Origin: a virus
Virus record (IMG/VR): IMGVR_UViG_3300038338_000007
Span: 1 to 25,051 of that record
Direction: 5' to 3' (one strand)
Length of the DNA: 25,051 nt
Under the pieces are notes generated by a model. The model was given only the letters and a program-made list of their open reading frames with translations, searched no databases and was not told the DNA's origin. The position numbers were made by a program, and so were the translations under genes. Below, piece by piece: positions 8,637-17,801 of this stretch (the stretch's first letter is position 1; every line of letters starts with the position of its first letter).

Positions 8637-9018
8637 AAGAAAGTGCGTAAACATTCACGATGGCACCCCTGGGATAATCACCAACATTGATGGTGAGGAC
8701 TGTGTTCTGTTCAACGATCGTCGGGGAAACGTGCGCAAGGCTTTGTACTCCCCGCTGAACTGGCGTGAGGACAAGCCAGCTCCCCGCCACTTCCCCAAGA
8801 CGGTAATGTTGCAGGTGGCGTATGAGGCTGATAGAAAACTATTGCAGGTATACGGGCTTCAGGGAAAGGATTGGTTGAGTTTACATCCAGAGGAAAAACG
8901 AGCCTGGCTTGAGGGGACCGCTAACTTCCATGACCAGGGCGAGGTGGTCGGCGAGTTTAGAGAACTACTCCACAACACAATAATGGATACATTGGGACCT
9001 CTATGGAAAGAAGCGTAA
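8629..9018 (+). CDS. 129-residue protein, unknown
   Basis: Starts inside the DDDE codons of the previous gene, with GGGTGA nine bases upstream. The N-terminal third is beta-rich (GIITNIDGEDCVLFNDRRGN), then a proline-rich link, then a helical and acidic part with W and E (DWLSLHPEEKRAWLEG; EFRELLHNTIMDTLG). Just before the virion genes, so it may belong to the packaging or late region, but no family is recognised. Confidence 0.7.
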   Translation: MSKRKCVNIHDGTPGIITNIDGEDCVLFNDRRGNVRKALYSPLNWREDKPAPRHFPKTVMLQVAYEADRKLLQVYGLQGKDWLSLHPEEKRAWLEGTANFHDQGEVVGEFRELLHNTIMDTLGPLWKEA

Positions 9019-9401
9019 AAAAGGCACTGCCGGTAGTAAAGCCATCGAAAGACAACCTGGTCGACTATGTGTCGGATTTAGCAGCCGTGGTGCTGGAGAT
9101 TCGCACTGTCTTAAACCGTTTGATCGGCGAGTACGTGTCAACCGACGATGATTACACATGTCTTGAATCAGATTGGATTATACACGTCACCGCGGCAAAA
9201 ACCGTCACTTTACCTAGCTCATATCGTGTTGCAAGGATTGTTACGATCACAAAAAGCACCGGCTATGCTGTTACGGTGGTACCCCAATCTGGCGAAACGA
9301 TAAACGGCGCTGCAAGCAACACTATTATATCCGGCTATTCCACCAAGTCGTTTGTGGCCAATGACGGCGACTGGGAAACCGCTGGTGTAGGAGTTCCGTG
9401 A
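9003..9401 (+). CDS. Fibre-like beta domain protein
   Basis: A 132-residue protein. The first 45 residues are helical (VDYVSDLAAVVLEIRTVLNR), then a repetitive beta domain: DDDYTCLESDWIIHVTAAKT, VTLPSS, IVTITKSTGYAVTVVP, ETINGAASNT and a final W. This layout (a strand, a VTLP turn, a TI-N-GA turn) is common in tail-fibre, tailspike and decoration proteins. It lies directly upstream of the large terminase, an unusual place for a virion surface protein. Overlaps the previous gene by 16 bases and its stop overlaps the terminase GTG. Confidence 0.7.
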   Translation: MERSVKKALPVVKPSKDNLVDYVSDLAAVVLEIRTVLNRLIGEYVSTDDDYTCLESDWIIHVTAAKTVTLPSSYRVARIVTITKSTGYAVTVVPQSGETINGAASNTIISGYSTKSFVANDGDWETAGVGVP

Positions 9402-10912
9402 GGTTTGCAGAGTTCCCGGTTGATCCAGCTATATATACTCCGAGTAAATGGGGTATGCGGTATCACAACTTAGCGACGACTGAAGCGCTTGGTGCCGGCT
9501 CCGCTGGACCTGGTAAGAGCTTAACACTTCTATTAGATCCATTCCTGCAAATTGCCGTGGAAAACGAGCGGTGTAGCAACCGGGATCACCCAAACCGTAT
9601 AAACTGGGGGGAGTCAAAAGGTTGGGCGCTGCACCTAAGGCGCACTAAGCCAAGGTTGTTGCAGACCCTTTCTCGTGCGCATGTTTTGTTTCGCAAAATA
9701 GATCCAGCGGTTGGGTGGAACTCAAAGGATAGCTACTTCACCTTTCGTAGTGGTTATAAAATCCAATTTGGCCACTGCCGTAATCCCGGTGACTGGAGCC
9801 TATACACCTCGCAAGAGTATTCCCACATAGCCATAGACGAGCTTATCGAGTTTATGGAGGAGCAGGTTCATTGGATTATGACCCGGTTGCGCTGTAGTGA
9901 CCCCATCATGGATAGCATGAAGCGGTTTCGCGCGATGACAAACCCAGTCGTGTCCGATGACCTCGGTGGTATCAAGATGGGTGATACCGAATGGGTCCGA
10001 CGAAGGTACGTTGACCCGTTTCCGGACGGCAACAAGGTTCTTAGCAAAACCGAGAAGGCCAAGGACGGGCGGCTGGTGAAGCGTACTCGGATTTATCTGC
10101 CGGCCACCCTGTATGACAACCCTGATCCGGATTTCGTCCGCTCGTACGAGGACGAGCTGCTCCATAAACCCAGGCACATTAGAGAGGCCCTACTATACGG
10201 TAACTGGTACTGGACTATCGGCGGGTTTTACTCAGACGACTGGGATCCAGACCTACACGTGTGCAAGCCGTTCAAAGTACCGGAATACTGGAAAATTTTC
10301 AGGGCGATGGATTGGGGGTTTAGAAACCCCGGTTGTGTGCACTGGTATGCCATGAGCCCGGATGGCCAGCTCTTTCAAATCCGCGAGGTTACATTTCAGG
10401 ACAAAACCGACAAAGAAATGGCCTTGCGAATAAAGGAAATTGACCGAAAAATGGGCTTTGTGAAGGATAATGTTTCTTTGCTTTCCGGCCCGGCAGACAC
10501 ACAGTTGTGGGAAGAGCGCGGTGAATCGGTTTGCAGTAAAGCAGACACCATGGCTTACTACGGGGTGCAGTGGGTCAAGGCAAATAAAAAATCCCGTGGC
10601 AGAAATGCTGAATTGTTACTAAATAGGTTGCGCGATTTAGATAAAGGTGGTAAAAATCCAGGATTCGTGGTATTCAACAATTGTCAGAAGACTATACAAA
10701 TCATTCCATCCGTGAAAACGGATAAAGAAAACCCGAATGTTCCAGCAGATTCCAAAAACGATCACTGGCATGATAACGTGCTGTATGCGTGTGCATATGC
10801 GTCAATGCCAGGAGTTGGTACAAGCCTAAGAAACGTAAGAGAATGGACACGTGTACCAACGGAGGTAGAAGGCAAAGATGGCGACGGATACGGTTACGGT
10901 TTTAGATACTGA
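9398..10912 (+). CDS. Terminase large subunit
   Basis: A 504-residue protein, close to P22 gp2 (about 499). GTG start overlapping the previous stop (GTGA), with TAGGAG upstream. ATPase: Walker A GSAGPGKS at 34-41 and Walker B HIAIDE near residue 145. The LLYGNW element near residue 268 leads into the nuclease: RAMDWGF (Asp near 304), GPADTQLW (Asp near 366), and NDHWHDNVLYA (Asp near 456) supply the acidic residues of an RNase-H-like fold. It pumps DNA through the portal and cuts it. It overlaps the portal gene by 35 bases. Confidence 0.97.
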   Translation: MRFAEFPVDPAIYTPSKWGMRYHNLATTEALGAGSAGPGKSLTLLLDPFLQIAVENERCSNRDHPNRINWGESKGWALHLRRTKPRLLQTLSRAHVLFRKIDPAVGWNSKDSYFTFRSGYKIQFGHCRNPGDWSLYTSQEYSHIAIDELIEFMEEQVHWIMTRLRCSDPIMDSMKRFRAMTNPVVSDDLGGIKMGDTEWVRRRYVDPFPDGNKVLSKTEKAKDGRLVKRTRIYLPATLYDNPDPDFVRSYEDELLHKPRHIREALLYGNWYWTIGGFYSDDWDPDLHVCKPFKVPEYWKIFRAMDWGFRNPGCVHWYAMSPDGQLFQIREVTFQDKTDKEMALRIKEIDRKMGFVKDNVSLLSGPADTQLWEERGESVCSKADTMAYYGVQWVKANKKSRGRNAELLLNRLRDLDKGGKNPGFVVFNNCQKTIQIIPSVKTDKENPNVPADSKNDHWHDNVLYACAYASMPGVGTSLRNVREWTRVPTEVEGKDGDGYGYGFRY

Positions 10913-12914
10913 ACAACCACAAAAACTCGAGTACGACGACAACGCAGATAACCTAGTCGAAATGTTCGCCCAACACCCCGATGGGGTCCAGGCGCTACAA
11001 GACCTGTCGGTGAACATTCTGGAGGATTTTGACGAGGCTTGGTGTTCGGGTGAAAAGGCTCGTAAGCAGCGTAAGCTAGAGTGGGATCTGTTTACCAACG
11101 TTTTGCCAGAACGCAGCAGTAAGTTCAAGGACATGGCTAATGTGTCTCTAACCATTGTGTTGGAGAACATCTCCAGGCTGACCCATCGTGCGGAATCAGA
11201 ACTATTTGGCGACTGGACGAATGTGTTTGGGGTTATGCCAGTCGGACCGGACGACGTGGAGCAGGCCGAACTGCTTAGCTTGCATGGAAATTGGCAACTA
11301 ACGCAAAAAATAATTGACTTCCCCCGACAGATGCAGCGCGGCTTGCTGCACTTCTACCTATTCGGCGATGTGGTCGGTCACAGCTACTTCGATCCAAAGA
11401 CAAAGCGGAACCGGCATGAAATCCTAACGATGGATGATTTCGTTGTGCCGTTTACCGCGGTGTCTACCATGCCGGATTTCTCCGACGTGCCGTATCGCGT
11501 GCGGATTATACGCAAATATCGCCATTCCCTAGAAGCTCAACGCGGCATTTGGTACGGCGTGGATAGGGTTCTCGATGGGCAGATACCCGATTGGGCCGAT
11601 GACCCACAGCCCGAGTTCGCGTTACGCAATGCGGATAAACTTGGATACGACGTAGACGAGCTAATGACAGCGCCGTACATCGTATTACAGTACGAGGGGT
11701 GGTGTTCGCTACCCAACCAAAGGCGAGAGCGCTTTATTCAAGCGTTTGTCGATTACAAAACCGGCGGGATGCTGGGGCTAAGTATTCATGAAGAGGCCCC
11801 GTGGGAAGAGAATATCCGATTCGAAACCCAACGCCGTGAGCTTGATATGTACAGGGATCAGTACCAACAGCATCAAGCAATTACATCTCAACTCGAGTTT
11901 CAAAAGCAACTGATATCGGATCGCGCGGATGCTGGAGAACTCGAAGAGGGCGATGTCGGTATGGCCGAGCTTACTGGGCCTGAAGCTCAGCCACCACCCG
12001 CGCCTTCCTGGATGAAGAACCCGTCAGATATGGAGGAAGAGCCATCGCCAAAAAAGAGCCAGCCTATACACATGTTCAGTCACGCTGTGTGTATCGAGTC
12101 TCTTACCGGTGTTAGCGGGATTGGCTATGGTCGGATTGTAACCGCGTACAACATCGCTGCAAATATTCTTTTGTGCCAGTATATTGATACGGCCAGCCTG
12201 GCAAACTGTCCCACGATGATCACAACTGATCTAGTGCGTTGGAAAAGCCCGTTTAAGATTGGCCCTGCTCAAGTCAACACTGTCAGCGGAATATACGGCT
12301 CTGACCTGAAGGCAAACATCATGCCGTTTACGCCGGGGCAAGCAAATCCACAGATGAAGGAACTTGTGGAGATGTTTATCGCAGCCGGCCAATCGGCGAT
12401 TCAATCTCCCGACGTGTTATCTGGTGAGCCTGGTAAAAGCGGTGAGACCTTCCGCGGTATTGCTACCAGGGTAGAGCAGGCTACCAAGCAGCTTAGCGTA
12501 ACCACTCGCTCCTATGCCCGTTTTGTTCAGCAAATGCTAAAGAATAACGCTCGCCTCAATGCAATCTACATGGATGACATCGAGATTTTCATGGTGAATG
12601 ACCATAAGAACGGTCAGACCACGAAGCGCATTGACAAGCGCCTGTACGAGCGCGACTATTCAACCACTATTCGGTCTGATTTAAAGTACACCAGCCAAGC
12701 CCAAAAGCTAGAGCAGGCACAAAGGGTGCTAGACATGGCGATACAGAACCCCTATCTTTTGCAGAATGCATCGTTTCAATACCAAGCGCTCAAGAATTAC
12801 TTTGAAGCCCTTGGAACCCCGGAGCTAATCGCACAGCTTGGCCCAGCCCCACCACAGCAACAACAGCCCATGAGTTTACCGCAGCCGGAACCCCAACAGC
12901 AACAAATGCAATAA
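10878..12914 (+). CDS. Portal protein, P22-like
   Basis: A 678-residue protein, near the size of the P22 portal (about 725). It follows the terminase with a 35-base overlap and has GGAGG upstream. The N-terminal region is helical and acidic; the centre has long strands (VVPFTAVSTMPDF; PYRVRIIRKYR), and an insertion with charged coil (about 320-390). A Gly-Glu-Thr-Arg segment (SGETFRGIATRVEQATKQL) precedes the long pore helix region, as in P22-type portals. The C terminus is a Pro/Gln-rich tail. It forms the ring through which DNA enters. Confidence 0.93.
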   Translation: MATDTVTVLDTEQPQKLEYDDNADNLVEMFAQHPDGVQALQDLSVNILEDFDEAWCSGEKARKQRKLEWDLFTNVLPERSSKFKDMANVSLTIVLENISRLTHRAESELFGDWTNVFGVMPVGPDDVEQAELLSLHGNWQLTQKIIDFPRQMQRGLLHFYLFGDVVGHSYFDPKTKRNRHEILTMDDFVVPFTAVSTMPDFSDVPYRVRIIRKYRHSLEAQRGIWYGVDRVLDGQIPDWADDPQPEFALRNADKLGYDVDELMTAPYIVLQYEGWCSLPNQRRERFIQAFVDYKTGGMLGLSIHEEAPWEENIRFETQRRELDMYRDQYQQHQAITSQLEFQKQLISDRADAGELEEGDVGMAELTGPEAQPPPAPSWMKNPSDMEEEPSPKKSQPIHMFSHAVCIESLTGVSGIGYGRIVTAYNIAANILLCQYIDTASLANCPTMITTDLVRWKSPFKIGPAQVNTVSGIYGSDLKANIMPFTPGQANPQMKELVEMFIAAGQSAIQSPDVLSGEPGKSGETFRGIATRVEQATKQLSVTTRSYARFVQQMLKNNARLNAIYMDDIEIFMVNDHKNGQTTKRIDKRLYERDYSTTIRSDLKYTSQAQKLEQAQRVLDMAIQNPYLLQNASFQYQALKNYFEALGTPELIAQLGPAPPQQQQPMSLPQPEPQQQQMQ

Positions 12915-12921
12915 GAGGTTT

Positions 12922-13158
12922 ATGACTGAAAATATAGAGGAGCTACAGCAGCTTCACAGCAGCTGGAAAGAACAGAAGTATACACAAACGTTTCTAAACA
13001 ACCTAAAGCTACAGCTTAGGGATGCGTGGGTAGGGTTGCAAAGCTCTCTTGCGCAAACGACTGACCCAAAGGTAATGTATGCCTATAGCCGTTGGTGGAT
13101 GCTATCGGAGTGTATTACAGCGATAACGAAAGGACCGGAAGATGATCAAAGAGGCTAG
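12922..13158 (+). CDS. 78-residue helical protein after portal
   Basis: AAGAGGT gives a good ribosome site. The product is helical and polar (ENIEELQQLHSSWKEQKYTQ; KVMYAYSRWWMLSECITAI) with a WW pair. It overlaps the start of the GroES-like gene by 17 bases. Small helical proteins often occur between portal and scaffold in podoviruses, with unknown role. Possibly a partner of its overlapping neighbour. Confidence 0.65.
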   Translation: MTENIEELQQLHSSWKEQKYTQTFLNNLKLQLRDAWVGLQSSLAQTTDPKVMYAYSRWWMLSECITAITKGPEDDQRG

Positions 13159-13726
13159 GGAAGAAGCAAAGAAAAACAGGGTATCAGATACCATCCCAAG
13201 TGTGTCACCTGGTTCGTTGCTGGACATACGCCGTAAGCGGTACAACATCCCCGATGAGGTATTCGGTGTATCAGCGGTATATGATCGCATACTGGTATAC
13301 CAGGTGCAGAAAGAGGAGAAGGAGTTCTATGACGAGGGCGGGTTGATAAAAAAGACTGAGATTCGCCAAACCGCCGAACGGCGAACAACCCCGAGTGGTG
13401 TAATCGTAACCGCTGGTGTTCAGGCTTTAGATATCCTTAGAAGCAACGGCGTTGATTTAGGCCACCTGGTTTTTTACACCCAGCTGGCGTTTTATCGTAT
13501 ACCGGTAGACACCATTCTCGGTGAAGATATAAACCTTGTGGTGTTGCGAGCTGGTGAGATAGTCGCGAGTATTGACTTAGCGCACGCGCTTGCCACTAGA
13601 CAAGCAAGGACCATTACACGAGACCGTGAGCTTAAGGATGGCACAAAGATAACCCAACATTTCTATGTTGATGATAAGGGTAAGCAGTGGAACCCTGTAG
13701 AGGGTTTTAGCCCGGATGACCTGTAG
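13142..13726 (+). CDS. GroES/Cpn10-like co-chaperonin protein
   Basis: A 194-residue protein. Residues 47-147 show the order of landmarks of the Cpn10 fold: VYDRILVYQV at 46-55, a charged loop, GGLI at 66-69, a variable stretch rich in T and R where GroES has its mobile loop, SGVIVTAG at 85-92, a GVDLGHLVFY segment and LVVLRAGEIVASID at 132-145. A 46-residue N-terminal and about 48-residue C-terminal extension flank the core. Known phage co-chaperonins (T4 gp31) help host GroEL fold the capsid protein; its place between portal and scaffold makes capsid folding the simplest role. Not proven; the fold could serve another assembly function. Confidence 0.75.
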   Translation: MIKEAREEAKKNRVSDTIPSVSPGSLLDIRRKRYNIPDEVFGVSAVYDRILVYQVQKEEKEFYDEGGLIKKTEIRQTAERRTTPSGVIVTAGVQALDILRSNGVDLGHLVFYTQLAFYRIPVDTILGEDINLVVLRAGEIVASIDLAHALATRQARTITRDRELKDGTKITQHFYVDDKGKQWNPVEGFSPDDL

Positions 13727-16871: not shown

Positions 16872-17801
16872 ATGGCTACCAACACTTTTATGAACGCAAT
16901 GCAAAGTTCGCTTTATAATCGGTATGGGATAACCATTCCGCCAACGGCGCACGTAGCGGCGTTTCTACACGCAGATGGTGTTCGAGATGGTGATGACTCT
17001 TTCATTAAGAACAACACCGTTAAGACGCTCAACAAAGCATTAGCGCGCTGTAAGTCTGACAGACAGGACTATATTTTTGCTCTTCCGGGGCACACGGAAA
17101 ACGTGGCTTCGGCAGATGCGATGGATAGCCTTGTTGCCGGCACTCAAATCGTTGGTATCGGTGATGGCGCTGGTCGCCCCGCCTTTACCTGGTCTGCGGC
17201 TGCCTCTACATTCTTGTTCGACGTGGCTAATGTTGGGTTGCACAACTGTATCCTAAACCTGGAACCAGGTACGGGAACCGTTACAGTGGCAGCTCCGATT
17301 ACCGTGTCTGGCGCCGGGTGTGCAATAACCGGGTGTTTGATGCGGTTTTCCACTGACGCGAACAACAAGGTAACGCAGGGTTTCACTGTAACTGGTGATG
17401 ATTTCCGTTTCGAAAACAATATTTGTTACGGAGCCACCGCGGGTGAGTGCACAGCGTTTATGGATCTCAACGCTGCACATCGTGCGGTTCTCATTGGCAA
17501 CTATATCGCCGGTGCGACCTCGAACGTAGCGGTGGGATTAGTACGCTTCGTTACCGCCGCCTCTCTGAACGTGTATTTGAAGGACAACGTCTATATCAAC
17601 CGAAAAGCCTTGAGCACCTGTTGTGTGACGGGGTTGGCGGCTGTATCTGGCATTTCCATCAACGAATCGTTCAACTACCTAGACACCGCTTCGTTGACCC
17701 CATGGTTGACGAGCACTGGTATTATGCACTTTCATCGACCGAGTGTAACAAACACGGCTGGTGAAACCGGTTCTGAAGTAGTCGGCACCGTATCTGCATA
17801 A
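16872..17801 (+). CDS. Right-handed beta-helix protein after the capsid gene
   Basis: A 309-residue protein starting on the base after the capsid stop, with GGAGG upstream. The N-terminal 35 residues are polar; the rest shows the repeating short strands, G, N, V, I and T of parallel beta-helices (QIVGIGDG; GLHNCILNLE; GCAITGCLMRF; FRFENNICYG; AVLIGNYIAG). VKTLNKALARCKSDRQDYIF and GHTENV in the first part match a similar order in the beta-helix protein at 18607, so the two are paralogues. Position suggests a head fibre or surface spike. Confidence 0.8.
   Translation: MATNTFMNAMQSSLYNRYGITIPPTAHVAAFLHADGVRDGDDSFIKNNTVKTLNKALARCKSDRQDYIFALPGHTENVASADAMDSLVAGTQIVGIGDGAGRPAFTWSAAASTFLFDVANVGLHNCILNLEPGTGTVTVAAPITVSGAGCAITGCLMRFSTDANNKVTQGFTVTGDDFRFENNICYGATAGECTAFMDLNAAHRAVLIGNYIAGATSNVAVGLVRFVTAASLNVYLKDNVYINRKALSTCCVTGLAAVSGISINESFNYLDTASLTPWLTSTGIMHFHRPSVTNTAGETGSEVVGTVSA

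Follow-up and report, generated by a model that had tools for sequence, protein, structure and literature searches.

How far can the GroEL-binding loop of a co-chaperonin decay, and can the protein gain another role in head assembly as it does so? The question is raised by a gene in a 25,051-nucleotide (nt) stretch of viral DNA (IMG/VR record IMGVR_UViG_3300038338_000007, positions 1 to 25,051; hereafter the window), in which an open reading frame (ORF) of 194 amino acids (aa) lies among the phage head genes. The original prediction had assigned a GroES/Cpn10-like protein with co-chaperonin core motifs to this ORF, and its exact coordinates and all of the quoted motifs were found. The assignment itself is borne out by a family profile match, a family-only AlphaFold2 model and synteny, and a co-chaperonin function is likely, although this clade's Cpn10 has changed to such a degree that the window protein escapes Pfam, PHROGs and NCBIfam alike.

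The ORF is a real gene. It starts with ATG, which an AAGGA sequence (13130-13134) precedes at a distance of 7 nt, and its closest relative, on IMG/VR contig L001 from another virus, is a full-length, syntenic homologue with 66% identity. Comparison of these two genes gave a nonsynonymous divergence (pN) of 0.22 and a synonymous divergence (pS) of 0.75, the latter saturated, from which it follows that the protein is under purifying selection.

Searches with the window protein alone returned no PDB sequence match, no PHROG match and no relative among 50,697 phage records (tblastn). A family was built stepwise, using a 36% identical protein (L015) as a bridge and then a five-sequence scan that led to 18 loci; these 18 relatives in metagenomic viruses (33-66% identity) and the window protein make up a family of 19 members, which we refer to as the extended family. 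No relative of this kind was found in isolated phages, and the sole match among genome contigs was the 14.7 kb contig MGMW01000088.1 (L112), which agrees in length and in match with the IMG/VR contig of L102. MGMW01000088.1 is binned in the Chloroflexi metagenome-assembled genome (MAG) RBG_13_53_26, which hints weakly at the host group. As far as we have found, the extended family occurs in one uncultivated phage clade only and was previously unannotated.

Comparison of profiles established computationally that the extended family shares common descent with the ordinary Cpn10s of the same locus. Alignment of the 19-member profile with that of 63 same-locus phage Cpn10s by hhalign gave a score of 34.7 (P 1e-4) with window residues 43-145 aligned collinearly, versus scores of at most 22.4 for about 200 column-shuffled controls; an earlier five-member profile reached 29.7, where the best null score was 25.3, with reversed or unrelated profiles at 10.7-13.1. 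Existing models recognised few individual members: the NCBIfam GroES model matched two of the 19 (best 2.3e-4), PHROG 3188 likewise two (best 8.9e-4) and Pfam Cpn10 (PF00166) one (0.0013), and PDB profile searches with three and with 19 members gave chance matches only. The original prediction had named the lack of a significant profile match as what would count against it; the single sequence indeed has none, whereas the family profile matches the phage Cpn10s significantly.

The core of the protein is predicted to have the Cpn10 beta-barrel fold, a point established computationally. An AlphaFold2 model from an alignment of the 19 family members only, with no known Cpn10 included, reached a predicted local distance difference test (pLDDT) score of 86.7 and a predicted template-modelling (pTM) score of 0.80; a model from five family sequences (pLDDT 47) was dropped. 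The original prediction had proposed such a model as a check of the fold, and the outcome was Cpn10-like: in a VIA-align comparison, ranks 1-15 were all Cpn10 structures (Z 7.3-9.1, model range 42-145), the best being Thermus thermophilus Cpn10 (1wnr_G; Z 9.1, 2.2 Å over 79 residues), and they included a GroES (3nx6; Z 8.9, 1.9 Å, 68 residues) and T4 gp31 (2cgt, Z 8.3, 2.5 Å, 76 residues; 1g31, Z 7.3, 4.6 Å, 93 residues). Rank 16 was a chain of a ClpP complex matched over 39-145 and rank 17 the alcohol-dehydrogenase-type GSNOR, which presumably matches via its GroES-like domain, and unrelated folds began at Z 4.0. Foldseek in BFVD gave 12 hits at E≤0.001, all GroES/Cpn10-type by name except one nameless entry, with 7e-6 to viral GroES proteins, and nothing at the same threshold against PDB.

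Around this core lie the long extensions at both ends that had been noted from the sequence (residues 1-41 and 146-194; Table 1). The 19-row alignment contains the conserved N-terminal block, a barrel start DRILVxQ followed by a loop with GGxI, and the block PRGVIVSAGLxALDxLRSNGIDLGH after the loop; the C-terminal tail shows the pattern H-x-x-x-D-x-x-GK-x-W-x-P and finishes in acidic residues. Mean pairwise identity peaks at 0.68 in residues 84-114 and 0.52 in residues 26-42, with minima of 0.28 in the loop and 0.26 at the start of the C-terminal tail. Residues 93-108 are modelled as a helix and turn where GroES has a hairpin. The loop region from D48 to G86 spans 38 residues, compared with 30 in Escherichia coli GroES (D8-G38, GroES numbering). 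The new features of the family are a conserved addition at both ends, the SNGxDxGH helix in place of the roof hairpin and a degenerate GroEL-binding tripeptide. N-terminal extensions are frequent in ordinary relatives too (134-155 aa); what distinguishes the extended family from them is the conserved C-terminal extension together with the altered loop.

As had been claimed from the sequence, the gene lies within a capsid cassette, with portal, presumed scaffold and capsid genes as its neighbours. The original prediction had further regarded the placement of such an extended co-chaperonin between portal and scaffold as unusual, and as to the position it was mistaken. A tblastn search with the capsid protein matched 19 phages, and nine of the 11 phage regions opened from it had an annotated GroES/Cpn10 between portal and scaffold; the annotation reads co-chaperonin GroES in, for example, HTVC023P, HTVC027P, CRP-901, DSL-LC04 and Pag-Yong1, and Alcaligenes phage QDWS535, found via its portal, has an annotated GroES in the same slot. 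Of the other two regions, that of L014 has no such gene, and in that of Caulobacter phage GB2A the product of the gene in this slot (gp089c; L005, 5152-5583) is annotated as hypothetical, yet matches Pfam Cpn10 at 3.5e-9; GB2A, a cultivated phage, is a relative well suited to experimental work. Scanning IMG/VR with a capsid profile yielded 80 loci. Once the extended-family loci were added to these, 75 loci had 3.6 kb or more upstream of the capsid gene; of the 75, 55 encoded an ordinary Cpn10, 19 an extended one (a few of these being repeats of one contig), one neither and none both. With 74 of these 75 carrying a Cpn10 in the slot, a location between portal and scaffold is the rule, making the Cpn10 gene an almost constant component of the head cassette throughout a large, uncultivated lineage of phages. 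When a tree was built from capsid proteins, the 17 distinct loci of the extended type fell on one side of a single 100/100 branch, with the window and L001 as the first branch inside the extended side; branches in this tree are long, and it does not show where the root lies.

Table 1. Positions in the window of the co-chaperonin-like gene, of the parts of its protein and of neighbouring genes.
Feature	Position	Strand	Evidence
Extended Cpn10/GroES-like protein, whole ORF, 194 aa	13142..13726	+	ORF call, homologues, alignment, model, fold match
N-terminal extension, residues 1-41: helix 2-11, then LLDxRRxxYxIPDxxF block (helix 26-33)	13142..13264	+	19-member alignment, model
Cpn10 core, residues 42-145	13265..13576	+	VIA-align range 42-145 against Cpn10 structures; hhalign 43-145
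Mobile-loop equivalent, residues 58-83 (EEKEFYDEGGLIKKTEIRQTAERRTT); tripeptide position I69-K70-K71 in best register	13313..13390	+	
Best-conserved block, residues 84-108 (PSGVIVTAGVQALDILRSNGVDLGH): helix 93-101, invariant SNG and GH replacing the GroES roof hairpin	13391..13465	+	Alignment, model
C-terminal extension, residues 146-194: helix, beta hairpin 155-163/169-177, acidic end (PDDL)	13577..13723	+	Alignment, model
Terminase large subunit	9398..10912	+	PHROG 979, 3.5e-26; tblastn to 869 phages
Portal protein, SU10-type	10878..12914	+	Pfam SU10_portal, 2e-8; PHROG 1216
Small ORF, 78 aa, sharing its last 17 nt with the start of the Cpn10-like gene	12922..13158	+	
Presumed scaffold protein, 300 aa	13735..14637	+	Location; profile match with its counterpart in relatives; no Pfam match
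Major capsid protein, 304 aa	15957..16871	+	Pfam Phage_capsid_4, 3.8e-11; alignment with annotated major capsid proteins

Other ORFs complete the region. Among the relatives with inspected gene lists, L001, L015, L096, L097 and the majority of the annotated phages have, at the corresponding place, an ORF similar in size to the small one upstream of the Cpn10-like gene. Two further ORFs (157 and 215 aa) sit between the presumed scaffold and the capsid gene, and a 309-aa ORF directly after the latter (16872-17801), 80% identical in L001 and with a weak pectate-lyase PHROG match (0.0014), possibly encodes a beta-helix decoration or fibre protein. Before the terminase gene, a 132-aa ORF (9003-9401) has a weak match to the StcE beta-sandwich (Pfam 0.003, below cut-off).

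The explanation that we favour, and consider probable, is that the window protein is a divergent, extended Cpn10 whose ring would cap the GroEL of the infected host and thereby let phage head proteins fold, in the manner of T4 gp31. Fold, descent and locus suggest that the protein may assemble as a ring and that the ring may cap GroEL; its substrates would be phage head proteins, the capsid protein first and perhaps the scaffold or portal, which it would fold or keep assembly-competent. A search of 11 related contigs, of which five measure 45-49 kb, returned neither a Cpn60 nor a further Cpn10, though these records may be incomplete, and host GroEL is therefore the likely partner. The extensions and the SNGxDxGH helix were probably added within this lineage and would serve either to remodel the dome or to dock one of the phage's head proteins, a guess made from their conservation.

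Several observations weigh against a gp31-like co-chaperonin. The window protein on its own has no Pfam match at E≤10, below the curated cut-off of Cpn10 (PF00166); with PDB equally silent, recognition by eye outdid single-sequence searches. The capsid protein, at 304 aa (about 33 kDa), fits ordinary GroEL-GroES, so the larger-cage reason for gp31 is not directly applicable. One related phage (L014; MW202601, 4900-6100) has portal, small ORF, scaffold and capsid genes but no Cpn10 gene, for which the wider lineage therefore has no strict requirement; L014 has a highly divergent capsid protein and keeps a 92-aa ORF at the small-ORF position despite the missing gene. The best-conserved stretch is residues 84-108, not the mobile loop. 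The GroEL-binding tripeptide of the window protein is degenerate and reads either I69-K70-K71 (IKK) or L68-I69-K70 (LIK), the former being preferred because pairing I69 with GroES I25 better fits the hhalign alignment and the P/T-D/E that follows. The first position is I or L in all 19 members and the second hydrophobic in 15, and the third is hydrophobic in 11 and basic in eight. All three are hydrophobic in only eight of the 19, in contrast to 57 of the 63 ordinary Cpn10s that phages encode at this locus.

Some of these observations lend credit to structural reuse, in which the Cpn10 ring was kept and GroEL capping lost. The protein would then act in head assembly itself, by way of its tails and of the conserved face at residues 84-108; it might form a ring at the portal vertex or serve portal or scaffold as a chaperone. 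The degenerate tripeptide, conservation that is concentrated in residues 84-108 and the N-terminal LLDxRR block instead of the loop, the conserved C-terminal tail and the locking of the gene between portal and scaffold all speak for it. However, GG-x-I followed by a hydrophobic residue is partly retained in the loop of most extended members, many of which keep mostly hydrophobic loop residues (LII, LIL, VIL), and the location fits a chaperone equally well because ordinary Cpn10s with intact loops occupy the same slot. We consider structural reuse unlikely, if still a serious competitor of the gp31-like function. It is also conceivable, although doubtful, that the whole virus clade turned a co-chaperonin into a dedicated head-assembly ring, with decay of the loop and gain of the SNGxDxGH face and two tails converting a lid into an assembly factor or part of the virion.

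Decidedly improbable is a co-chaperonin fitted to an unusual host GroEL (a divergent or second copy with a changed groove), the altered loop being an adaptation and the substrates general rather than head-specific. Loop sequences do differ strongly across the extended family, and the member on a contig in a Chloroflexi MAG means that hosts may be far from E. coli; however, the MAG assignment of that 14.7 kb contig is weak, and the added tails are left unexplained. Finally, a convergent GroES-like barrel or model artefact, for which the missing single-sequence matches and the missing Foldseek matches in the PDB could be cited, is largely refuted and very hard to credit given that profile, fold, synteny, mutual exclusion and capsid-tree evidence concur.

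Whichever function the protein serves, the clade offers natural variants of the GroEL-binding loop (IIM or IVL to IKK) at one locus, and loop decay is therefore directly testable. To judge from its citation in PMC7185714, virioplankton chaperonins were the topic of Marine et al. 2017.

Known systems close to the window protein include the ordinary phage GroES of the HTVC023P/CRP-901/Pag-Yong1/DSL-LC04 lineage (PHROG 3188, PF00166), which shares its slot, core fold and capsid lineage. These ordinary proteins, of 134-155 aa in most marine and freshwater phages and 107-126 aa in others, differ in having clear Pfam matches and three hydrophobic loop residues, and in lacking both the conserved C-terminal extension and SNGxDxGH. 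Bacterial GroES/Cpn10 is alike in fold and strand order but has about 95 aa, an IVL mobile-loop tripeptide and a roof hairpin. The likeness to T4 gp31 that the original prediction had drawn is supported by the fold match and by the modelled absence of the roof hairpin in a phage-encoded Cpn10 fold, and extends to a longer loop and a tie to head assembly. T4 gp31 shares 14% identity with GroES, has no roof loops and carries a loop of 22 residues versus 16 in GroES (PMC6318259). In contrast to the window protein, gp31 is about 12 kDa, without such extensions, and its function is proven, being essential for the folding of T4 gp23 (PMC6318259).
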